Source: Bacteroidota bacterium
GTDB taxonomy: Bacteria > Bacteroidota > Bacteroidia > B-17B0 > Aurantibacillaceae
Direction of reading: 5' to 3'
Assembly (NCBI GenBank): GCA_016194985.1
Contig: JACQAK010000046.1
Span: 1 to 64,000, forward strand
DNA: 64,000 bases
The notes beneath the pieces are model-generated. The model worked only from the letters and a program-made list of their open reading frames with translations, was not told the DNA's origin and did not search any database. Positions 6,818 to 17,233 of this stretch are shown here, one piece after another; positions within the stretch are counted from its first letter, which is position 1, and each line of letters opens with the position of its first letter. Position numbers and translations under genes: made by a program.

Positions 6818-9800
6818 ATGAAATATATATACATACTTGGCTTATATTTAGTAAGCTTTAATTTATTATCTCAAAGAGGTAAAGATGGTACCCCTACTAT
6901 CTCAGCAGCAAATACCATTGTTAATGCTTATACGTCCTTAACCAGCAACGTTACATCAGGTTCCACCACATTAAATGTAGGAAACTCTTCGGCTTTTTCT
7001 GTTGGAGACTTAGTATATATCATTCAAATGCAGGGCGCCAATGTCTATTCTTATGATGGTAGTTTTACAGGTCCCTGGTATGATGGTAATTCCGCTTTCC
7101 CCACGGATACAACCTTTGGAAAAATAACAAATTATAATAACGCCGGAATGAACGAGTTTGCACAGGTAAATTCTATTCCTAACAATACATCTATTGTTAT
7201 TGACTGTGGATTAAAAAACAATTACGATGTAACGAAAAGCTACACTACTCAATCAGGCAAAAACATTACTTTACTCGGAAATGTTCAGGTTATCAGAGTG
7301 CCCCGTTATGCCTCATTAACCTTAAATGGAACCGCATCTATCTCTTGCCCTCAGTGGAATGGCAGTACCGGAGGTGTTGCCGTTGTTGAAGTATTAAATG
7401 ATATTCAATTAAATTCAACCGGTGCATTTAATGTTGCCGGTAAAGGATTCAGAGGTGGCGCTGTTTTTAACTACACACCTACGACTGTAATTAGTAGTGA
7501 TAAATATGGTGCGAATCCATCTCAGGAAGGCGGAGGAAAAGGAGAATCCATTGCCGGAGATTCTGCCATGTACAGAAATTATGCCTCGGTGTTTTGCAGA
7601 GGATCTATTGCCAATGGCGGTGGTGGAGCCAATTCTCATAACTCGGGCGGCGGCGGCGGCGCTAATGGTCATAACGGAGTGAGCTTTAACAGTTTGGGTA
7701 ATCCGGTAGCCGGCTATAATACTATCTGGAATTTAGAATTTGCAGGCATGGCCACCAATACCTCTTCCGGCGGCGGCAGAGGAGGGTATTCCTTCTCTAA
7801 TAGTAATCAAAATGTGTCAACCGTTGCTCCGGGAACCTACAGCACACCTTCAAATGCCTGGGGTGGCGATAAACGCAGAGCCGTTGGTGGTTTTGGCGGA
7901 CGTCCTCTGAACTACATCAATGGTAAACTATTTTTAGGCGGCGGCGGCGGCGCAGGGCATGGAAATGACAACAAAGCCAGTGGCGGTGGCAATGGCGGAG
8001 GAATTGTTTACGTAGTATGTTATGGTAACTTAAGCGGAACAGGTTCAATCATTGCCGATGGAGCAAGTGCTTCTAATACAGGTGCCGGCTGTTCTTCCAA
8101 TGACGGTGCCGGCGGCGGCGGCGGCGGCGGCGCCATTGTGTTAGATGTTAATGGAACTACCAATTTAACGGCTGCTACAGCATTGAGTGCAAATGGTGGT
8201 AATGGAGGTAATGTTAATTTTAATTGTATCGTATCAAATGCAACAGCTTATGGCCCCGGTGCCGGTGGCGGTGGCGGTTATATTGCCTCTACAGGCACAT
8301 TACCTGGTAATTCGTTAGCCGGTGGAAATAATGGAAATGTTACAGGAAACGCCAATAATATCGGAAACAATTTCCCTCCTAATGGGGCAACCAAAGGAGG
8401 TTCAGGAGGAACTGGCTCTGTAACGGCTTACACATTAACACCATCTGCCAGTCAAACAATTTGCACCAATCAAACATTTACGGTAACAGCTACCTCTACA
8501 GAACCCGGAACTACTATTAACTGGTACAACACCCTTACAGGAAATTCTGCTATTGCAACAGGAACAGCTTATGCGGCGCCTGCTTACGCAACAGCAGGAA
8601 CCTACACATTATTTGCCGGAGCCTGTTCAGGAACATACCGTCAACCTATTGTGATTACAGTATCGGGAGGATTAAACATTACGGCGAATACTCCAACCAT
8701 TTGTCCCGGTCAAACAGCAACATTAACCGCTTCCGGAGCCACCACTTATACCTGGAGTTCCGGTCCTCCTAATACCAATACCCTTTCTGTTTCTCCGGCA
8801 TCTACCACTGTTTACACTGTAAATGGTACATCCGGAACCTGTGCAGGGTCGCATACAACTGCAGTTGTTGTAAGCAGCGTTCCTTCGGTTAGTGTTACCA
8901 GTCCTTCTATTTGTTCAGGTAATTCAGCTACTTTAACTGCCAGTGGAGCTACTAATTACACATGGTCGCAGGGAGCCCAAACCACCGGTAGCATTGTTGT
9001 TACTCCTACAACAACTTCTTCATATACGGTTACCGGTTCAAATGGTGCCTGTACAAATTCTATTTCTACAACCGTAAGCGTAACAGCTACTCCTACATTG
9101 ATAGCGAACTCTGTAACTATATGCCCTGCTCAAACAGCAAGTTTAACTGCAAGCGGTGCCACTACCTACACATGGAACCCCGGAAATGTAACGGGTTCAT
9201 CATATACGATTAGTCCGGCATCTAATACAACAGTATCTGTTACAGGTGCCAACGGGGTCTGTACAAGTTTCAAAACAGTATCCGTTACTATAGGTTCAGG
9301 TATTTCTATTTCCGTTAATAATCCTACCATTTGTATAGGGCAAACAGCCTTATTAACAGCCAACGGTGCTACTACCTATACCTGGAATACGGGCCCAACA
9401 ACCAATACCTTATCCGTATCTCCGGGATCTACCACAACTTATACCATTTCCGGAGCTACCGGGGCCTGTACCGGAAGTAATACGGCCGTTGTAACAGTTG
9501 TTGCTGTGCCGTCTTTAACAGTGGCTAATACCTCTATTTGTTCAGGAAATACCGCTACATTAACAGCAAGCGGAGCGTCTTCCTATACATGGGCTCCTGA
9601 CGGGCAAACCACATCAAGCATTACCGATGCACCGGGTTCAAGCAAGAACTATACGATCACCGGATCCAATGGCATCTGTACAAACACAACAACAGCAAGT
9701 GTTAATGTTACTGCTACTCCAACCCTAGTAGCAAATTCCGTAACGATTTGCCCTGCTCAAACAGCTACATTAAATGTGAGTGGCGCAACAACCTTCACAT

Positions 9801-15114: not shown

Positions 15115-16017
15115 TTGCATTTGTTACGTGTTAAGTTTTTCATACTTCTTTTATTATCTGTAAATCAGTTAGCGTTTGCATCCGATTCGTTATCCGTATT
15201 TAAAAAACGAAAACTAGCGCTGGGCATATCTTCACTGGCACTAACGTCGGGCTCACTTATCTATTTAAATCAGGCTTGGTATCAGGAATACAACACATCC
15301 ACCTTTCACACATTCAATGACAATGACGAATGGTTTCAGATGGATAAATGCGGGCATACTTTTACTACATACCAAACCGGAAGACTGATGATGAATGCTA
15401 TGGAATGGGCGGGCTATTCCAAAAAGTATCAACTTATTATAGGAGGCTTAAGTGGTCTGGCTTACATGAGTGCTATCGAAGTGATGGATGGCTATAGCGC
15501 CGGCTGGGGCTTTAGTTGGGGCGACATGAGTGTAAATGCGTTAGGCAGCGGTTTGGCTATAGGACAAAAACTCTTATGGAATGAGCAACGCATTCAATTA
15601 AAATTTTCGTTTTATTCTTCAGAGTATGCTAAATACCGACCAGATCTGCTAGGAAAATCGTTTGCCACACAAATATTAAAAGACTACAACGGACAAATTT
15701 ACTGGCTCAGTATCAATCCTTCTTCCTTTATGAAAAAAGAAACCAAATTTCCAAAATGGCTGAATGTAGCCTTTGGGTATGGGGCCAACGGCATGCTTGG
15801 GGCTAAATACAACAATATTGTGATTGAAGATGAAGATGGCAACGTAAAAAATTTTAACCGCTATCGACAAGGGTATGTTTCGCTGGATGTTGATCTCACC
15901 CGCATTAAAACAAAATCAAAAGTGTTGAAATCTGTTTTCTCCTGCCTCAATATGATTAAGATTCCGTTTCCTAATTTAGAACTAAGCGAAGGGAAATTAA
16001 AGTTTAATTATTATTGA
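15115..16017 (+). CDS. DUF2279 family exported protein
   Basis: A 300-residue protein starting at a TTG just after the hydrolase remnant. It has a signal peptide (about residues 3-23, ending near AFAS) and the DUF2279 core: DKCGHTFTTYQTGRLM, a short hydrophobic stretch, and GWGFSWGDMSVNALGSGL. The family is predicted to be periplasmic or outer-membrane associated, with no known function. A second in-frame TTG six bases on is an alternative start. It may be cotranscribed with the hydrolase. Confidence 0.85.
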   Translation: MHLLRVKFFILLLLSVNQLAFASDSLSVFKKRKLALGISSLALTSGSLIYLNQAWYQEYNTSTFHTFNDNDEWFQMDKCGHTFTTYQTGRLMMNAMEWAGYSKKYQLIIGGLSGLAYMSAIEVMDGYSAGWGFSWGDMSVNALGSGLAIGQKLLWNEQRIQLKFSFYSSEYAKYRPDLLGKSFATQILKDYNGQIYWLSINPSSFMKKETKFPKWLNVAFGYGANGMLGAKYNNIVIEDEDGNVKNFNRYRQGYVSLDVDLTRIKTKSKVLKSVFSCLNMIKIPFPNLELSEGKLKFNYY

Positions 16018-16041
16018 TTATTCTTATAGCAATTATTCGTT

Positions 16042-16300
16042 CTACAAATTGGGCACGTTTCTGCAAGAGGCAAGCAGAAACCGGACTGTCGCTTCAATCT
16101 TTTTGAAGCTTCGTGCCTCCGCTGCAAAAGGATTTTCGTTTACATCCCTCGCGCGAAGACATTCCATATAAAAATTAACCTTCGATTCTAAATGCAAAGC
16201 CGCGCGAGGACTGCAAATGGAAATCCTTTTTTGTGTAACAAAAAAGATTGCAATGACAGTCCGGTTCGGCTCACGCCGAACGCGCCCAAATACTACAAAT
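16042..16300. mobile_element. MITE-like long palindromic element with 8-bp flanking direct repeat
   Basis: This fills most of the 376-bp gap between the DUF2279 and metallo-hydrolase genes; the gap holds no gene. The arms (about 16050-16157 and 16199-16292) are imperfect inverted copies sharing the blocks GGGC.CGTT, CCGGACTGTC, CAATCTTTTT, AAAGGATTT and CTCGCGCG. Each arm carries a small hairpin at the same place (TTTCTGC/GCAGAAA on the left, TTCGGC/GCCGAA on the right). CTACAAAT stands directly outside both ends (16042-16049 and 16293-16300), as a target-site duplication would. No transposase is inside, so movement would need an enzyme from elsewhere. Similar long palindromes are dispersed in Bacteroidota genomes. 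Confidence 0.65.
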
Positions 16301-16393
16301 AATTAGTATTGTAAAAGAAGATACATAACATTCCCTTGCACTACTCTAATTTTCTATTTATATTTAATTCATCATTCTTAATCACAAAAAACA

Positions 16394-17233
16394 ATGCAAC
16401 TATACTCTATAAACACCGGACATTTTAAATTAGACGGAGGCGCTATGTTTGGCGTTGTTCCAAAATCAATATGGAATAAATCAAATCCTGCAGATGATAA
16501 TAACATGTGCAGTTGGGCCATGCGTTGTTTATTAGTACAGGATGGCAAACGCCTTATCCTGATCGATAATGGCATGGGCAATAAACAGGATGATAAATTT
16601 TTTGGTTATTATTATTTACACGGAACCGATACGCTTGATAAATCACTTGCAAAATATGGCTTTCACAGAGATGATATTACGGATGTGTTTTTAACACATC
16701 TGCATTTTGATCATTGCGGCGGAAGTATTGAGTACAATGCCGACAGAACAAAATTAACCCCTGCCTTTAAAAATGCAACCTACTGGTGTAACGAAAAACA
16801 CTGGGAATGGGCCGTTAATCCTAACCCAAGAGAAAAAGCCAGTTTCTTAAAAGATAATATCATGCCGATTAAAGAAAGCGGGCAATTGCAGTACTTAGAT
16901 AGCGGTAAGGATTTTATGCCCGGATTTGGTATGTATGAAGCCAATGGGCATACAGAAGCGATGATGTTGCCATTATTAACTTATAAAGGAACAACCGTTG
17001 CCTTTATGGCCGACCTGATTCCTTCTGTTGGGCACATTCCCCTGCCGTATGTGATGGGCTACGATGTACGCCCTTTAAATACTTTAAAAGAAAAAGAATA
17101 TATTTTAAAACAAGCGACTGAAAATAACTGGACGTTGTTTTTTGAACACGACCCTAGCATTGAATGCTGCACCGTTGCTCAAACAGAAAGAGGTATTAGA
17201 CTGGATAAGAGTTTTGGGTTAGGAGAATTGTGA
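16394..17233 (+). CDS. Metallo-beta-lactamase fold hydrolase
   Basis: A 279-residue cytoplasmic protein with the metal-binding signature HLHFDHCGG (His102, His104, Asp106, His107). A further His sits in ANGHTEAM, an Asp in FMADLIPS and a last His in FFEHDPS. It resembles the quorum-quenching lactonase / methyl parathion hydrolase-like branch by the N-terminal GGAMFG and the ADLIPS motif, but the substrate cannot be assigned. It begins downstream of the palindromic element and appears intact. Confidence 0.9.
   Translation: MQLYSINTGHFKLDGGAMFGVVPKSIWNKSNPADDNNMCSWAMRCLLVQDGKRLILIDNGMGNKQDDKFFGYYYLHGTDTLDKSLAKYGFHRDDITDVFLTHLHFDHCGGSIEYNADRTKLTPAFKNATYWCNEKHWEWAVNPNPREKASFLKDNIMPIKESGQLQYLDSGKDFMPGFGMYEANGHTEAMMLPLLTYKGTTVAFMADLIPSVGHIPLPYVMGYDVRPLNTLKEKEYILKQATENNWTLFFEHDPSIECCTVAQTERGIRLDKSFGLGEL

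Follow-up and report, generated by a model that had tools for sequence, protein, structure and literature searches.

The long imperfect palindrome at positions 16050-16292 of the window, the 64,000-nucleotide stretch of Bacteroidota DNA analysed here, is made up of two copies, placed head to head, of a folded unit related to Flavo-1 (RF01705). It lies between a gene for a 300-aa DUF2279 protein (15115-16017, plus strand) and one for a 279-aa metallo-beta-lactamase-fold protein (16394-17233, plus strand). The 243 bp are enclosed by two plus-strand copies of CTACAAAT (16042-16049 and 16293-16300). The left arm is one folded unit on the minus strand (16051-16154), with an outer stem P1 (GCGCG/CGTGC), a stem P2 carrying a Flavo-1-like core, and a terminal hairpin P3 at 16058-16080 (TTTCTGC/GCAGAAA at 16058-16064/16074-16080). 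The right arm is the same unit on the plus strand (16202-16287), with P1 GCGCG/CGCGC, a Flavo-1-like P2 core and P3 at 16264-16281 (GTTCGGC/GCCGAAC at 16264-16270/16275-16281). A spacer of 47 bp (16155-16201) separates the two. Two nested inverted repeats were found in the element, one of 26 nt with 88% and the other of 30 nt with 83% complementarity. The arm block CCGGACTGTC (16081-16090) has its counterpart in GACAGTCCGG (16255-16264), and CTCGCGCG (16148-16155) in CGCGCGAG (16201-16208). Folding was compared with that of shuffled sequences, yielding z-scores of -7.8 (RNA) and -6.75 (DNA), with none of 200 shuffles as good. The inverted repeats and the z-scores bear out the sequence-only reading of this DNA in so far as it described a real palindrome with a sub-hairpin in each arm.

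A permissive Rfam scan matched RF01705 to both arms on opposite strands, at 16194-16270 (plus; 34.5 bits, E = 1.3e-5) and 16075-16159 (minus; 24.4 bits, E = 0.0076). Both matches cover model positions 1-76 and agree with the core fold and sequence; neither reaches the gathering score of 42 bits, and nothing in the window passes it. A model named R1, built from an alignment of 68 units of the host genome, matched the right arm at 96.5 bits (16194-16303, plus) and the left arm at 71.0 bits (16035-16162, minus). Each arm folds into a full three-way junction, made up of P1 (GCGYG/CRCGC), an irregular P2 with the Flavo-1 core, and P3; the arm's outer end carries GCCC. From a reading of the copies, pairing is conserved in P1 and P3, which lie outside the RF01705 model; P1 occurs as GCGTG/CACGC, GCGTT/AACGC, GCGAG/CTCGC, GCGCA/TGCGC, GTGTG/CACAC and GCATT/AATGC. 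RF01705 gave 98 matches in the host genome at E<=1, with 63 above the cut-off. The two best, at 74.2 and 71.8 bits, are canonical Flavo-1 copies (G000:C231:3524-3599 and C172:4450-4547) that score 25 and 22 bits with R1 and have no P1.

At least 134 R1 units were found in the host genome at E<=0.1, a lower bound, with 150 of 2740 candidates scored. Pairing was analysed for 125 of the 130 R1 matches in the fetched loci; two window rows (duplicates of L157) and three matches of 22-25 bits (L082, L083 and L149) were left out. Eighty-eight units form 44 pairs, every one divergent, and no convergent pair occurs inside an element; one neighbouring plus/minus couple falls between two adjacent elements. 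Spacers between model ends peak near 11 and at 31-33, and their length is fixed within subfamilies. The other 37 units have no R1-detected partner within 150 bp. From GGGC to GCCC, the median element length is 243.5 bp (42 pairs). The median best identity between copies is 74.5%, and the GAGCTC-containing subfamily alone reaches 94.5%. The copies are old, and mobility in the host genome is therefore historical. Of 70 placements determined relative to genes, 39 were tandem, 22 convergent and 9 divergent.

A second class of arm keeps the frame of P1, GGG-CCC and P3 around a different P2 core (GAGGCATTGTTTGAGCTC...GCGAGTGCCGAAAGCCC, with GAGCTC). Examples are L126:666-793, L136:369-496 and L058:2407-2527; the L126 and L136 arms are absent from the RF01705 matches listed. 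Copies with this arm class can bear extra outer inverted ends, TAGAATAATGTAGGTTTATTTTA (L192-L221), which gave 40 matches with three or fewer mismatches and none in the reversed control. The same ends also surround internally deleted remnants (e.g. L204 and L195).

Covariation was measured on 68 of the 91 listed units. The alignment was made with MAFFT from sequence only and the structure was written by hand; units with long inserts, degenerate units and the two canonical Flavo-1 copies were left out by hand. Among 1824 cells, 93.9% were paired, compared with 81.0% after shuffling. Compensatory double changes numbered 251, against 90.0 from shuffles, and none of 500 shuffles reached the observed value. 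The covariation score was 0.359 (shuffled, 0.132), and none of the five measures was matched by any shuffle. Sliding the partner by 1-3 columns reduced pairing to below 50%, a control that favours the structure, which was read from the same sequences; P1 and P2 rest on the number of pair types. In P1 alone, 99.4% of cells were paired and there were 38 double changes. The alignment is poorer in P3, whose two parts have 80% and 73% paired cells. Similarity between arms was no higher within an element than between elements (58.9% and 59.0% identity, respectively; 42 elements, P = 0.55), so selection would act on each arm and not on the long hairpin, and the latter was rejected as its target. The proposal of selection on structure, made originally for the palindrome as a whole, thus holds for the fold of each arm and fails for the long hairpin.

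The two CTACAAAT copies had been read as an 8-bp target-site duplication exactly at the element ends. Both copies are present; their placement on the ends is asymmetric, the left one overlapping TTGGGC by one T and the right one beginning 5 nt past GCCC. Direct repeats within 8 bp of both ends were sought in 42 paired elements of the host genome and compared with permuted flanks; 2 of the 44 pairs were skipped, as the outer GCCC was not found. A repeat of at least 8 bp occurred in a single element, the window copy. The permutation chance was 0.0042 per element, and approximately 0.17 chance cases are expected across the set. Mean repeat length was 2.43, compared with 2.07 +- 0.28 for permuted flanks, and 10.8% of permutations were equally high. 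No repeat of this kind flanks the orthologous element in G009. A duplication of constant length, as made at most copies of a duplicating miniature element, was therefore rejected as a trait of the family on the count of 1 in 42, and the CTACAAAT pair at the window copy is probably due to chance. A lack of flanking duplications at other copies had been named beforehand as grounds for refuting the earlier reading, and this is what the 42 elements show. In relatives without the element (e.g. G017 and G004), the locus holds short, unalignable intergenic stretches with no CTACAAAT at all.

Copy number is uneven. In 20 genomes of the genus, R1 copies at E<=1e-6 numbered 96, 73, 63, 62, 40, 36, 28, 26, 22, 21, 10, 9, 4, 3, 2, 2, 2, 2, 1 and 0. 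At least 40 of 61 genomes of the family were R1-positive (at most 59 candidates scored per genome), as were at least 25 of 198 genomes drawn from Bacteroidota at E<=1e-8 (at most 18 candidates per genome, with stricter filters). Eight sites of G005 gave 18 two-flank comparisons with G019, G003 and G004, in which the unit was absent in 16, single in one and paired in one. Nine sites of G019 were sought in G005; of the eight comparable, five had the element, one had one arm replaced and two were without. Sites differ between species that share 94% identity in one gene. Since even G005 and G019 have diverged in their intergenic flanks, the insertion boundary was not fixed to the base. Some free sites hold other palindromic repeats, and these gaps are therefore regarded as general landing places. 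Losses could be included beside gains at the polymorphic sites: G003 and G004 (3 and 2 copies) may have lost some, as many are present in the species that are sister or outgroup to them. No plasmid match was found for the window element and no phage match for a GAGCTC-type copy. A Flavobacterium unit gave partial matches of 74-75% in Paraclostridium plasmids and nothing better, and plasmids and phages were rejected as carriers. Uneven copy number (0 to 96), together with sites that hold a unit in one species and are empty in a neighbouring one, supports a dispersed and formerly mobile element. The earlier classification as a non-autonomous mobile element therefore survives on dispersal (at least 134 units) and site polymorphism, without the duplication as its mark.

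At the window locus, R1 units were found in 3 of 14 loci having both neighbour genes, with two in G000, two in G009 and four in G007. The window copy is old, since the same intergenic space is occupied in G009 and G007. By eye, the left-arm P3 differs from that of the G009 ortholog (TTCCTGT/ACAGGAA) by two compensatory differences, and the stretch 5' of the beta-lactamase-fold gene start, presumably its promoter, resembles the G009 and G007 counterparts. The orthologous gap of G007 (L059:2395-3059) carries three minus units and one plus unit, a local expansion. Other palindromic or tandem repeat families lie before the beta-lactamase-fold gene in G003, G019, G005 and G006 (L053, L054, L056 and L061), as if this were a general landing site.

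Neither an autonomous copy nor a transposase whose own ends match those of the element was found. The only gene for a Y1 transposase in the host genome (L051) sits among a different repeat; at L051:1230-1500, five short palindromes of the AAGCCCGCAGGGCTTGAACATGAAT type precede it, a REP-like set of its own. Ten genus genomes carry 20 units or more, and five of them, including G007 (63 units, 99% complete), gave no Y1 match; among these five, G019 is 76% and G016 87% complete. Open reading frames beside the units of six low-copy genomes (L164, L166, L170, L171, L173 and L174), read by eye with no family scan, showed no evident transposase. A composite in G005 (L227:1031-2468) has two divergent R1 arms 1.2 kb apart around the gene for a 399-aa secreted protein (Por_Secre_tail), with no transposase. 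The 1.44-kb stretch is missing from G004, and G003 has another palindrome instead; it could be cargo between two arms or two insertions beside a gained gene. An integron-like array at L429:3995-12000 (G198:C25:199494-207499) has a tyrosine recombinase gene (PF13495 and PF00589), same-strand genes and attC-like sequences between genes (e.g. near 7425-7550), with three R1 units embedded as larger repeated segments.

Divergence at orthologous copies was counted in 14 of 17 arm comparisons, drawn from G000/G009, G005/G019 and three sets of Flavobacterium sites; both arms of L240/L247 were left out, as was the left arm of L233/L248. Differing positions numbered 16 of 566 in P1 and P2 stems, 27 of 244 in core internal loops, 18 of 152 in the P3 stem, 41 of 181 in hairpin loops and 108 of 364 in outer flanks. 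Stems thus diverged about ten times more slowly than flanks, a difference partly favoured by the selection of orthologs that both had to match the model. Counted pair by pair without L240/L247, four changes were fully compensated, and there were single changes to G.U and some breaks, mostly in P3. Between G019 and G005, the paired element of L240/L247 seems to be inverted at its site, and it was dropped for this reason as a case of in-place compensation. In L239/L243, the inner hairpin loop of a shared unit is swapped in G005 for a small palindrome, AACTGAGCGGAGCCGAAGTT, and loops are therefore taken to be exchanged as modules. Units in Flavobacterium are solo and recur at matching positions across several species, one such position being upstream of a gene taken from its protein to be rpsU (L319, L353 and L364), and thus resemble a fixed functional element. 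The fold was probably kept after insertion, and each arm's fold would then still do something; hairpin-templated repair could preserve the stems as an alternative to selection. A fold of one strand as RNA predicts more G.U pairs than A.C mismatches. Both were counted in 128 + 74 distinct units, giving G.U to A.C ratios of 44:25 in P1-P2b (P = 0.03), 15:17 in P2c and 29:57 in the poorly aligned P3. These weak counts do not decide between RNA and DNA, nor on the functional strand.

The reading favoured here, with some reserve, is that of a miniature non-autonomous repeat of two head-to-head folded arms, spread by a trans-acting enzyme, with the fold preserved after insertion. The enzyme's substrate would have been the folded single strand, with no target duplication seen, and units would have inserted at tolerant sites, mostly between genes and seldom between divergent ones. 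The likeliest role would be that of a structured element acting when single-stranded, either as RNA in a read-through transcript or as DNA. With the arms inverted, one of them is sense whichever way the region is copied. A cut-and-paste miniature element of a DDE-type insertion sequence making 8-bp target duplications, as proposed earlier, is unlikely. It would account for CTACAAAT on either side of the window copy, for the inverted arms and for the outer inverted ends TAGAATAATGTAGGTTTATTTTA of one subfamily, but not for an end repeat of at least 8 bp in only 1 of 42 elements, a mean repeat length within the permuted range, a G009 ortholog lacking the repeat, or units with no transposase seen beside them in six low-copy genomes. 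A Bacteroidota REPIN, a REP doublet mobilised by a REP-associated tyrosine (Y1, HUH) transposase, shares the intergenic inverted hairpin doublets, the many copies and the lack of target duplication. It is very unlikely, however, given that the host's Y1 gene is placed among another repeat, that half of the ten genus genomes rich in units are Y1-negative, and that no GT[AG]G foot is conserved; on the Y1 search of the host genome and 20 genus genomes, membership of the RAYT/REPIN system was rejected.

That the units are a resident structured RNA (Flavo-1 proper, as an sRNA or untranslated-region element) and not mobile DNA is doubtful. RF01705 is annotated as an RNA family, unit sites are orthologous across Flavobacterium species, stems are conserved in place, and there is a slight G.U excess on the unit strand. 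Inverted pairs, 0-96 copies per genome within a genus and sites that differ between close species are nevertheless unlike a resident gene, and Flavo-1 matches in F. psychrophilum (Guerin 2021, PMC9723704) show no distinction between sense and antisense orientation to transcribed regions, with many outside them. That the element is simply a bidirectional terminator, or a palindrome arisen by chance, is highly improbable. The distribution of placements (39 tandem, 22 convergent, 9 divergent) would suit a terminator, but the bias is mild and the unit consensus, as read, has no T run after any stem; this candidate was rejected on both grounds. Chance was refuted by more than 130 homologous copies with covariation and by the fold z-scores against shuffles. 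A more speculative reading, possible though on balance not expected, is that the Flavo-1 'RNAs' are DNA-level substrates. These would be modular three-way-junction sites, with a constant P1-GGG/CCC-P3 frame and at least two classes of exchangeable P2 cores, read as a folded single strand by a putative recombinase, in a class distinct from IS200/REP hairpins and attC, and later fixed as a conserved intergenic element across Bacteroidota.

Flavo-1 is given as a likely RNA that is not cis-regulatory in Table 1 of Weinberg et al. 2010 (PMC2864571), and PMC9029176 counts it as one of the most abundant sRNA families of bacteria for which no function is known. No paper treating it as a mobile or paired repeat was found in the open-licence literature searched. 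The larger covarying fold, the inverted pairs and the uneven copy number turn the puzzle of the Flavo-1 RNA annotation into a testable question of mobile DNA, and an unexplained candidate RNA family is thereby linked to mobile repeats. R1 is a better model than RF01705 for finding these elements. Mutations in P1 or P3, outside the Rfam model, are predicted to matter.

Among known systems, Flavo-1 RNA shares the core GATTG..RYGGAAATCC-hairpin-GATTG..RYG..AGC, the occurrence in Bacteroidota and the many copies. It differs in that P1 surrounds the window-type core and P3 comes after that core, both stems being absent from the 76-position RF01705 model, in that units come as inverted pairs, in that a second arm class has another core, and in that the window arms fall below the gathering threshold. 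The defining features of REPs were taken from a passage of PMC6006769, where REPINs are described as inverted doublets of hairpins. Two inverted hairpin units with fixed spacing were found here (44 divergent pairs, with spacers near 11 or 31-33), with no conserved tetranucleotide corresponding to GT[AG]G 5' of P1 in the columns of the 68 units and no cognate Y1 gene flanked by the same repeats in the host and 20 genus genomes. The likeness to REPINs and BIMEs thus lies in extragenic inverted hairpin doublets at high copy number without target duplication, and the difference in arms that are three-way junctions of 85-105 nt and not short single hairpins. Integron attC sites carry the end boxes RYYYAAC and GTTRRRY. 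The units resemble attC as sites folded from a single strand with conserved bulges, whereas their consensus, as read, lacks both boxes; the L429 array has attC-like sites of its own side by side with R1 units, and for this reason the units were not taken to be attC. ERIC, RU and Correia-type elements are long imperfect intergenic palindromes, dispersed and probably mobilised in trans. The window family is like them in each of these respects, and differs in having no end duplication and in a constraint that acts on each arm's own fold.
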